Shown here in pieces: positions 27,690 to 54,079 of a stretch of 56,149 bases of DNA (the first letter of the stretch is position 1; the number at the start of each line of letters is the position of its first letter). The DNA lies in assembly GCA_015233395.1 (NCBI GenBank), contig JADFXV010000013.1, positions 1 through 56,149 of the forward strand, read 5' to 3'. This stretch comes from Desulfovibrionaceae bacterium. GTDB lineage: Bacteria; Desulfobacterota; Desulfovibrionia; Desulfovibrionales; Desulfovibrionaceae. Made by a program: the position numbers and the translations under genes. A model generated the notes under the pieces. That model was not told the origin of the DNA and did not search any database. It saw only the letters and a list, made by a program, of their open reading frames with translations.

Positions 27690-27750
27690 ATAAAGTTTTT
27701 TGAAGGGGGTCCGGGGGGGAACTTTTTTTCAAAAAAGTTCCCCCCCGGTC
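27690..27750. repeat. A-tract palindromic element
   Basis: AAAGTTTTTTGAAGGGGGTC, then arms CCGGGGGGGAACTTTTTT and AAAAAAGTTCCCCCCCGG with a short loop. It follows the ppiD stop (minus strand). Confidence 0.75.
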
Positions 27751-32126: not shown

Positions 32127-32360
32127 GCGGTCTCCCTGTCGGTCTGTTTCCTCTGGCGCGGGCAGGGCAATAAATAAATTCCGCCGGAATTGAAAGGGCG
32201 CGGTCCGGACAAACTCCGGCAAGGCCGGATCGGGCGAATGCGCCCGGCTCTTTATCTTTGCCCGGGAGTGCGGTAAGCTTTGCGCCCGCCGCCTGGCGCC
32301 GGTCGCGACCGGCCGGACGCGACCGGCCGGACGCGGCCCACAACCCAAACGAGACACCCA

Positions 32361-33452
32361 ATGAGCAACAAAGTCGCTTTGATCACCGGCGTCACCGGCC
32401 AGGACGGAGCCTATCTCTCCGAATTCCTGCTCGCCAAGGGCTACCACGTGCACGGCGTCAAGCGCCGCGCCTCGCAGTTCAACACGAACCGCATCGACCA
32501 TCTCTACCAGGACCCGCACGAGACCGGACGGCGCTTCGTCCTGCATTACGGCGACCTGACCGATTCCACCAACCTGATCCGCATCATCCAGCAGGTCCAA
32601 CCCGACGAAATCTACAATCTGGCAGCCCAAAGCCACGTCCAGGTGTCCTTTGAGACTCCGGAATACACGGCCAACTGCGACGCCCTGGGCGCCCTGCGCC
32701 TGCTTGAGGCCATCCGCATCCTGGGGCTGGAAAAAAAGACCCGCTTCTACCAGGCCTCGACATCGGAACTCTACGGCAAGGTCCGCGAAACGCCGCAAAC
32801 CGAAGACACGCCCTTTCACCCGCGCAGCCCCTACGCCGTGTCCAAGCTCTTCGCCTACTGGATCACGGTCAACTACCGCGAAGCCTACGGCGTTTACGGC
32901 TGCAACGGCATCCTCTTCAACCACGAATCCAAGCTGCGCGGGGAGACCTTCGTCACCCGCAAGATCACCCGGGCGCTCGCGCGCATCAAGCTCGGCCTGC
33001 AAGACTGCCTGTACCTCGGCAATCTGGACGCCAAGCGCGACTGGGGCCACGCCAAGGACTTCGTCGAAATGATGTGGCTGATCCTCCAGCAGGACGAGCC
33101 GGACGATTACGTGGTGGCCACCGGCGTGCAGCATTCGGTGCGCGAGTTCATCCTGGCCGCGGCCGCCGCCCTGGACCTGCCCATCCGCTTTACGGGGACC
33201 GGGGTGGAAGAGAAAGGCCATCTCGCTTCGACCGGCCAATGCGTCGTGGCCGTGGACCCGCGCTATTTCCGGCCGGCCGAGGTGGATTCGCTGCTTGGCG
33301 ACGCGACCAAGGCCCGGCGCAAACTGGGCTGGAAACCCCGCATCGCCTTCGAGGAAATGGTCAGGGAGATGGTCGCCTCCGACCTGCACGACGCCAAACG
33401 CGACGCCCTGTGCCGCGAGGAAGGCTTCACGACCTTCAATTTTCACGAATAA
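32361..33452 (+). CDS. gmd: GDP-mannose 4,6-dehydratase
   Basis: A 363-residue short-chain dehydrogenase converting GDP-D-mannose to GDP-4-keto-6-deoxymannose, the precursor of GDP-fucose, GDP-rhamnose or perosamine for surface polysaccharides. NADP-binding GVTGQDG (10-16), the active-site run STSELYG (133-139; Thr134, Glu136) and Tyr158-x3-Lys162 (SPYAVSK) are intact. Next-step enzymes are not adjacent. ATG 32361 ([10 protein letters not shown]) is chosen. It is followed by a MITE-split hairpin. Confidence 0.95.
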
Positions 33453-33457
33453 GAGCG

Positions 33458-33764
33458 CCGGGGGGAAACTTTTTGGGGCTGTCCTAGCTAACAAGCGACA
33501 ATCCGTATCTTTCGTAATGTTATTAAACTGTTGAAGTGTATTTTCTGCTTTATCTTAAAGCGGGGGCCGGGGGCGGCAGCCCTCTGGGAAAAAAAGAGTG
33601 GTTTTGGTTTTCCGCTTTCAAGTCTGAACGCGGCAGCCCTTTGAAGAGGAAAGCCAGAACCACTGGTCTTTCTCCAGGGGGCTTCGCCCCCGGCCCCCAT
33701 GAAAGCGGAAAACGGATCCCTTAGCTAGGACAGCCCCAACTTTTTCCCAAAAGTTTCCCCCCGG
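33458..33764. repeat. A-tract hairpin split by a MITE
   Basis: Left arm CCGGGGGGAAACTTTT (33458-33473) and right arm AAAAGTTTCCCCCCGG (33749-33764). Removing the MITE and one copy of its 8-bp duplication joins them into a perfect 16-bp stem with a 4-nt loop (TCCC). Confidence 0.85.
33475..33737. mobile_element. MITE family A, complete copy (263 bp)
   Basis: Terminal inverted repeats of 17 bp, GGGGCTGTCCTAGCTAA (33475-33491) and its complement (33721-33737). These are flanked by an 8-bp direct repeat AACTTTTT (33467-33474 and 33738-33745). It has no transposase-like frame. The right ~140 bp is closely similar, inverted, to 53805-53938. An 8-bp duplication fits several IS families; the parent IS is not in the window. 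Confidence 0.88.
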
Positions 33765-33779
33765 CCCCGCCGCCCCGTT

Positions 33780-34397
33780 TCAGCCGCATTTGTCGTCCGG
33801 CTTGGCCGGCGATTCGATGCAGGCGGCCTGCAGGGCGTCCACCAGGATGGTCAGGGGCTGGTCCTCGTAGATAACCAGCCGCTTTTCCCGGATGGCGTAT
33901 TCGAAGAAGCAGGTGAAGGAAATGCGCTCCTTGAACTGGGACAGGCGCAGAAATTCCAGAAGGAATTCCATCTTGCCTTTCATCTGGGACGACTGGCGCT
34001 CGGCGCTGACGCGGATGAAGTGATTGCCCGAGCGCACCCATTCCTCGGCCCACTGCATGACGAAGTAGCGGATATGCACCCGCATGCCCTCGACAGCCTT
34101 GGCCAGGGACGCGCGCAGTTCCTTCTGGGTCAGCCGCCCGTCGGCCGCGAGCTGCTCGCGGAAGCGCTTTTCCATCTCGGCGGCGGCCATCATTTCCAGG
34201 TATTTGCACAACCCCCGGTGGATATCGACTTCCGGCACGCCGTATTTTGCGATCAAGATGGCCCCGATCTCGCGTTTGTCCCCGCCCTTCTGATCGGCCA
34301 GGGCCCGGTCGAGCGCCTCCTGGGCCGCGACGCCGTTGCGCACCAGTATCTCGCCGAAACGAAGCGGCATTTCCAGGCGCAGGCAATGTTCCTTCAT
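33780..34397 (-). CDS. MshEN/GspE N-terminal-like domain protein
   Basis: A 205-residue cytoplasmic protein. Residues 10-68 show the repeated pattern FGEILVRNGVAAQEALDRAL and IGAILIAKYGVPEVDIHRGL. This is the layout of the GspE/PilB N-terminal (MshEN) domain, some members of which bind c-di-GMP. The remainder, ending SPAKPDDKCG, is not recognised. Because it has no ATPase part, it is likely a stand-alone regulator. GGAGGGG precedes ATG 34397. Confidence 0.65.
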   Translation of the reverse strand: MKEHCLRLEMPLRFGEILVRNGVAAQEALDRALADQKGGDKREIGAILIAKYGVPEVDIHRGLCKYLEMMAAAEMEKRFREQLAADGRLTQKELRASLAKAVEGMRVHIRYFVMQWAEEWVRSGNHFIRVSAERQSSQMKGKMEFLLEFLRLSQFKERISFTCFFEYAIREKRLVIYEDQPLTILVDALQAACIESPAKPDDKCG

Positions 34398-34529
34398 GGC
34401 CCCTCCGAGGGTTGCCGGTCTGCGCGACACGATGACCGGGAGCGGGCGGTCTGTAAAAAAATTTCCGCTCCCGTGAATAAATTCCCCGGGCGGGCGTGGC
34501 GATCCCGCCGTCCCGAAATCGATACGCCC

Positions 34530-53804: not shown

Positions 53805-53938
53805 GGGGTGTCCTAACCCAGAAATTCGCTTTCCGCTTTCATGGGGGCCGGGGGCGGAGCCCCTTGGGAAAATATCAGTGGTTCTGGCTTTTCTCTTCAA
53901 AGGGCCGCCGCGTTCAGGCTTGAAAGCAGAAAACCAAA
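53805..53938. mobile_element. MITE family A, partial copy
   Basis: Starts with GGGGTGTCCTAA (cf. GGGGCTGTCCTAGCTAA of the full copy) and runs through TTTCCGCTTTCATGGGGGCC and GTGGTTCTGGCTTT to GAAAACCAAAG, matching the inverted right ~140 bp of the complete copy. The far end is absent; it ends where MITE B begins. Confidence 0.85.
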
Positions 53939-54079
53939 GAGGGACTTGCAAAATTCATTCTCCGCCATGTCCGAGTCGTAATACGGCTGAATAAATCCTT
54001 AAATTATAGGGGATTCCAAAGGGCGCAGCCCTTTGGCCGCCGGAGGCGTTAAAGAAACCACTATTTTTACAAGTCCCTC
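53939..54079. mobile_element. MITE family B, copy 2 (141 bp, inverted)
   Basis: Inverted ends GAGGGACTTGCAAAATTCAT and the complement-like TTTTTACAAGTCCCTC; core CCAAAGGGCGCAGCCCTTTGG. The same length and core as 37523-37663 in opposite orientation. Confidence 0.8.

Follow-up and report, generated by a model that had tools for sequence, protein, structure and literature searches.

A probable IS1016-group miniature element within a dispersed host hairpin between convergent genes of a Desulfovibrio-like bacterium

The window analyzed here is a stretch of 56,149 nucleotides from a Desulfovibrionaceae bacterium, in which the spacer between two convergent genes contains a hairpin interrupted by a short mobile element. 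The features of this locus, in the order of their positions, are as follows.

32280..33452, plus strand: gmd, GDP-mannose 4,6-dehydratase (TIGR01472, 599.9 bits against a cut-off of 415; PF16363)
33457..33473, plus strand: left arm of the interrupted hairpin, GCCGGGGGGAAACTTTT, 17 nt, complementary to 33749-33765
33467..33474, plus strand: left copy of the target site duplication (TSD) AACTTTTT, 8/8 identical to the right copy
33475..33737, no strand assigned: miniature inverted-repeat element (MITE), very probably of IS1595/IS1016 type, 263 bp, without a transposase ORF, with terminal inverted repeats (TIRs), a TSD and 9 further full-length genomic copies
33475..33491, plus strand: left TIR, GGGGCTGTCCTAGCTAA, the same as both ends of an autonomous insertion sequence (IS) on a viral contig and of others in relatives
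33562..33698, no strand assigned: long inverted repeat inside the MITE, formed by two inverted copies of a ~50-bp repeat that other genomic sites carry without the MITE
33721..33737, minus strand: right TIR, a 17/17 match to the left repeat
33738..33745, plus strand: right copy of the TSD AACTTTTT, 8/8 identical to the left copy
33749..33765, plus strand: right arm of the interrupted hairpin, AAAAGTTTCCCCCCGGC, 17 nt, in the predicted fold still paired with the left arm, the folded MITE lying between them
33780..34430, minus strand: convergent gene for a small protein with a weak MshE-N-like c-di-GMP-binding motif (NF053729, E 1.2e-8, 34.6 bits, below the cut-off of 38)

The stop codon of gmd ends 4 nt ahead of the hairpin, and the convergent ORF begins at GTG, with an internal ATG start also possible. 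An initial sequence-only reading of this DNA had described a 263-bp MITE whose 17-bp inverted ends and 8-bp target duplication were both perfect, and both descriptions were confirmed. Within the window, the 17-mer GGGGCTGTCCTAGCTAA occurs only at the two MITE ends, even when 3 mismatches are allowed (0.09 occurrences expected from shuffles). The element is short, lacks a transposase ORF (the longest ORF lying wholly within the 263 bp is 70 aa) and exists in multiple copies with TIRs and TSDs, the features by which a MITE is recognized. The ~50-bp repeat in its interior (GCGGGGGCCGGGGGCGGCAGCCCCCTGGGAAAA..CAGTGGTTTTGG; window 33562-33622 and 33639-33698; L205-L215) is a REP-like dispersed repeat, which was also found alone at ~11 other places in the genome. 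Comparison of the MITE with Rfam gave only matches to long-hairpin microRNA families, all scoring far below the gathering threshold.

In-silico excision of the MITE together with one AACTTTTT yields GCCGGGGGGAAACTTTT-TCCC-AAAAGTTTCCCCCCGGC, and the gmd 3' spacer in its uninterrupted form would read GCCGGGGGGAAACTTTTTCCCAAAAGTTTCCCCCCGGC. The perfect stem with loop TCCC that had been proposed is thereby restored, with 17 rather than 16 pairs once 33457 and 33765 are included. The duplicated octamer comprises 7 bases of the ascending stem arm and the first loop base; the insertion was thus into a pre-existing hairpin, as had been suggested, at the stem-loop junction rather than wholly in the loop. 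Elsewhere in the host genome, the strict pattern GGGAAACTTT(n)AAAGTTTCCC identified 27 uninterrupted copies of this hairpin, against 0 for the reversed control pattern, and loose copies number ~54 genome-wide (forward matches of AACTTTTT(n)AAAAGTT minus the two interrupted ones). These loose copies represent a dispersed unit of AAAGTTTTTTGAAGGGGGTCC, GGGGGAAACTTTTTTTCAAAAAAGTTTCCCCC and a T-rich tail (L217-L224; window 27720-27739), apparently located beside gene ends. Because uninterrupted copies persist elsewhere in the genome, the hairpin is a pre-existing host feature and not a part of the element, and the uninterrupted copies are its empty-site class. The hairpin arms directly abut the element, so that the outer inverted repeat might be read as part of a longer transposon end, with no hairpin before the insertion; however, the arms are absent from the other full-length copies except C112, direct duplications lie between the arms and the element, and the 27 uninterrupted hairpins exist on their own, which makes such a longer end scarcely conceivable. 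As for an orthologous empty site of the gmd spacer, the relatives searched included no same-genus genome, and no homologue of the gene downstream of the MITE was found in 199 family genomes.

The host genome (G000) is a draft of 3.37 Mb in 158 contigs. The sequence-only reading had called for a search of this genome for other copies with the same ends, and this search recovered 10 full-length copies, 86-99.6% identical when aligned, along with many partial copies, so that the refuting condition named in that reading, an absence of further copies, did not apply. Exact 8-bp duplications flank six of the full-length copies, namely AACTTTTT (C44, C112), TAAATAAA, AAAGTTTT, AAAAACTA and TAAAAAAT. 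A young subgroup is formed by C33, C136b and C93, which are mutually 99.2-99.6% identical. In addition, a related 209-bp element with the duplication TTTCGTAA is present at C105, and shorter MITE derivatives extend down to 52 bp (C103). The closest relative of the window copy is C112 (C112:9379), a sister MITE that occupies the identical position in a hairpin of the same class. Transposition with an 8-bp duplication is accordingly upheld, whereas the qualifier "recent" attached to it earlier is not: the ends, the duplication and the stem of the window copy are undecayed, but the insertion event cannot be dated because the nearest copy is just 93.9% identical. Outside the host, the MITE was found neither in 38 sampled relatives nor, beyond one short 83% stretch, in 297 genomes of the order; plasmids gave no match to it, and a genome-contig collection gave none to its exact end.

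The exact 17-bp end was detected in four viral contigs, in all four at the end of an IS1595-like element. One of these (L133) carries a complete IS of 713 bp with both TIRs identical to the MITE ends, the TSD TATTTTTA and a 217-aa transposase, whose sole Pfam match is PF12762 (DDE_Tnp_IS1595; E 1.8e-36, residues 59-197), without a zinc finger; on reading, the other three ends run into IS1595-like coding sequence. Autonomous ISs with 17-bp ends identical to those of the MITE were found in G256, G067 and G178 as well as in L133, and IS1595-like transposases (family definition in PMC8101967) are encoded in 164 of the 297 genomes of the order. The proposal that the parent IS could be traced through the MITE ends thus held for relatives and failed for the host genome: neither Pfam nor protein searches revealed an IS1595 transposase gene in G000, although a draft of 158 contigs could miss one. 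Among relatives, the 40 IS copies retrieved all have paired GGGGCTG-type ends and lengths of 709-722 bp, and 36 of the 40 are flanked by exact 8-bp direct repeats (one more has a single mismatch), nearly all A/T-rich.

Several features relate the element and these autonomous relatives to the IS1016 group. The order of transposase motifs, E..DESYFG / VYTD / HINGIENFW, is the IS1016 signature given for ISApl4, a 712-bp member of the group with ends GGGGCTGTACTAGA and A/T-rich 8-bp repeats (PMC12561309). Like ISApl4, the MITE has terminal repeats of the GGGGCTGT... type (beginning GGGGCTGT.C.TAG or alike) and A/T-rich 8-bp duplications, with a mean of 6.9 of 8 A/T positions over 14 two-ended copies; its autonomous relatives, with ~217-aa DDE_Tnp_IS1595 transposases that lack a zinc finger and lengths of 709-722 bp, likewise resemble the group, this transposase being found in relatives and not in the host genome. 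In contrast to IS1016-group elements, the window MITE is 263 bp long, has no transposase gene and has an interior unrelated to one, and its demonstrated sequence similarity to the autonomous ISs is confined to the TIRs. In this respect it resembles MITEs generally, which have only terminal repeats in common with their autonomous partners, and its small size, lack of an ORF and moderate copy number are those of bacterial and archaeal MITEs (PMC3852290). It differs from them in that the autonomous partner was not found in the same draft genome and in that the interior is an inverted pair of a host-dispersed repeat. Judged from its sequence, the element is very probably a non-autonomous MITE of the IS1595 family, IS1016-like group, inserted with duplication of AACTTTTT.

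An ISL3 parent was considered and rejected. On contig C20, the end GGGGCTGTCCTAG (C20:1842) lies ~65 bp from an ISL3 transposase remnant, with 13 bp of that end in common with the MITE, and on reading the ISL3-type elements of relatives also show A/T-rich duplications; however, ISL3 relatives in the same family have ends GGCTCTTCCGGGTTTTCCGTGGG, unlike the MITE, whose ends are not of the ISL3 type (GGCTCTTCCG...), and sequence similar to theirs lies inside the C20 stretch. Membership of the MITE in the ISL3 family is thus extremely improbable. The C20 remnant itself (L047 1842-3990) is truncated at an IS3-type element beside the end GGGGCTGTCCTAGGTC, and sequence similar to this region is present in genome G234.

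The sequence-only reading had further taken this insertion as evidence that hairpins are insertion targets. A transposase that recognizes hairpins, as cruciform or terminator structures, so that 3'-end hairpins are the true targets, would agree with the identical position of the window copy and C112 in one hairpin class. However, overlap with a stem of at least 8 bp is limited to 2 of the 14 sites of two-ended MITE copies and, in relatives, to 2 of 37 IS sites, against 4-8% for A/T-matched octamers. Both MITE-hit stems are at least 16 bp long, and ~2% of A/T-matched octamers lie in such stems, so that 2 of 14 insertions in long stems is mildly above expectation (~3% by chance, by our own estimate). 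Among the AACTTTTT octamers in sampled host DNA, 8/15 (53%) lie in stems of at least 8 bp and 6/15 (40%) in stems of at least 16 bp. Once this octamer is chosen, a hairpin is thus expected in roughly half of the cases without any recognition of hairpins, and a rule of A/T-rich octamers suffices for the hairpin insertions; the published ISApl4 sites are also simply A/T-rich (PMC12561309).

A second property of the sites is a clear AAACT bias in this genome. AAACT, AACTT, ACTTT or their complements occur at 8 of the 14 two-ended MITE sites against 0.8 expected from A/T-matched octamers, and at 16 of 32 against 1.8 when one-ended copies are included; relative to the local flanks, the 8 (of 14) compare with 3.45 expected (P 0.003), although the P values are optimistic because the motif set was chosen after the sites had been seen. 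Since AAACT-like boxes accompany hairpins, their over-representation speaks in favor of hairpin targeting, whereas the preference is absent from the IS sites in relatives (3/37). On balance, recognition of hairpins by the transposase is decidedly unlikely. It is rather doubtful as well that an IS1016-type transposase prefers the AAACTTTT boxes of dispersed host 3'-end hairpins, recognizing either their sequence or a cruciform structure, so that these units would serve as landing sites in which the insert lengthens the hairpin and does not break it. The bias may instead reflect where insertions survive. The sampled host DNA has a G+C content of 63.6%, and only 1.8% of its positions carry octamers with 7-8 A/T; it is reasonably probable that insertions occur across such A/T-rich octamers and are retained in 3'-end intergenic spacers, where they do little harm. 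The position of the MITE between convergent genes and the old stem still paired around it in the predicted fold are consistent with retention of this kind, which by itself does not account for the AAACT enrichment relative to the local flanks. It bears solely on where copies are found and is compatible with the assignment of the element to the IS1016-like MITEs.

For the IS1016-like MITE, we propose that an IS1016-type transposase that this lineage once possessed, and that is no longer found in the assembly, would have acted in trans on the 17-bp ends. Its staggered cut, 8 bp wide, would have fallen on AACTTTTT, an A/T-rich octamer near the top of the hairpin between the two convergent genes; the MITE would have been joined at the cut, and gap repair would then have doubled the octamer.

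The interrupted hairpin had also been described as the gmd terminator, a description that is not supported. A Rho-independent terminator has a G+C-rich stem followed directly by a T-run; here a stem is present, whereas the T-run is absent from both strands of the rejoined site on reading, and a terminator scan of the interrupted site gave 0 matches; "terminator" would therefore follow only from the position between convergent genes. T-rich tails such as GGTCTTCTCTC do lie beside some intact hairpin copies elsewhere, and a literature search on MITEs in terminators returned nothing relevant. In the predicted RNA fold (-181 kcal/mol, z -11.8), the two old arms remain paired, and the whole MITE forms a long hairpin above them. 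Because the MITE folds into one long hairpin, the old arms can still pair, and with the outer stem retained in the prediction, little loss of 3'-end structure is expected; the insertion probably lengthens this structure rather than destroying it.

The MITE insertion is real, and the element is new as a named element, while its kind is well known. The locus is a clean example, with element, target duplication and target all readable, and an orphan family of MITEs from a Desulfovibrio-like bacterium can, with high probability, be placed in a known transposase family. The parts that deserve attention are the AAACT bias and the internal control within one genome, consisting of dozens of uninterrupted sister copies of the same target hairpin. 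The finding would carry more weight if real target choice lay behind the bias toward gene-end AAACTTTT boxes.

Related elements of other structure were also observed. One of 186 bp (L042 2969-3154; C108:4968-5153) has flanks that are inverted (CTTTCAAGTTT ... AAACTTGAAAG) and not direct repeats, and represents either an insertion into a palindrome with loss of the duplication or an element whose ends are longer. In addition, positions 53805-54078 of the window contain a half copy of the MITE and, directly after it, a second MITE-like repeat whose ends are GAGGGACTTGCAAAAT / TTTTTACAAGTCCCTC. A complete version of this composite lies at C75:1182-1587 (L049), and partial versions lie at C84:28015 (L037) and C96:18515 (L020). 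Since the junction lies near MITE position 129-133 in every case, the composite apparently arose by insertion of one element into the other and may since have spread.
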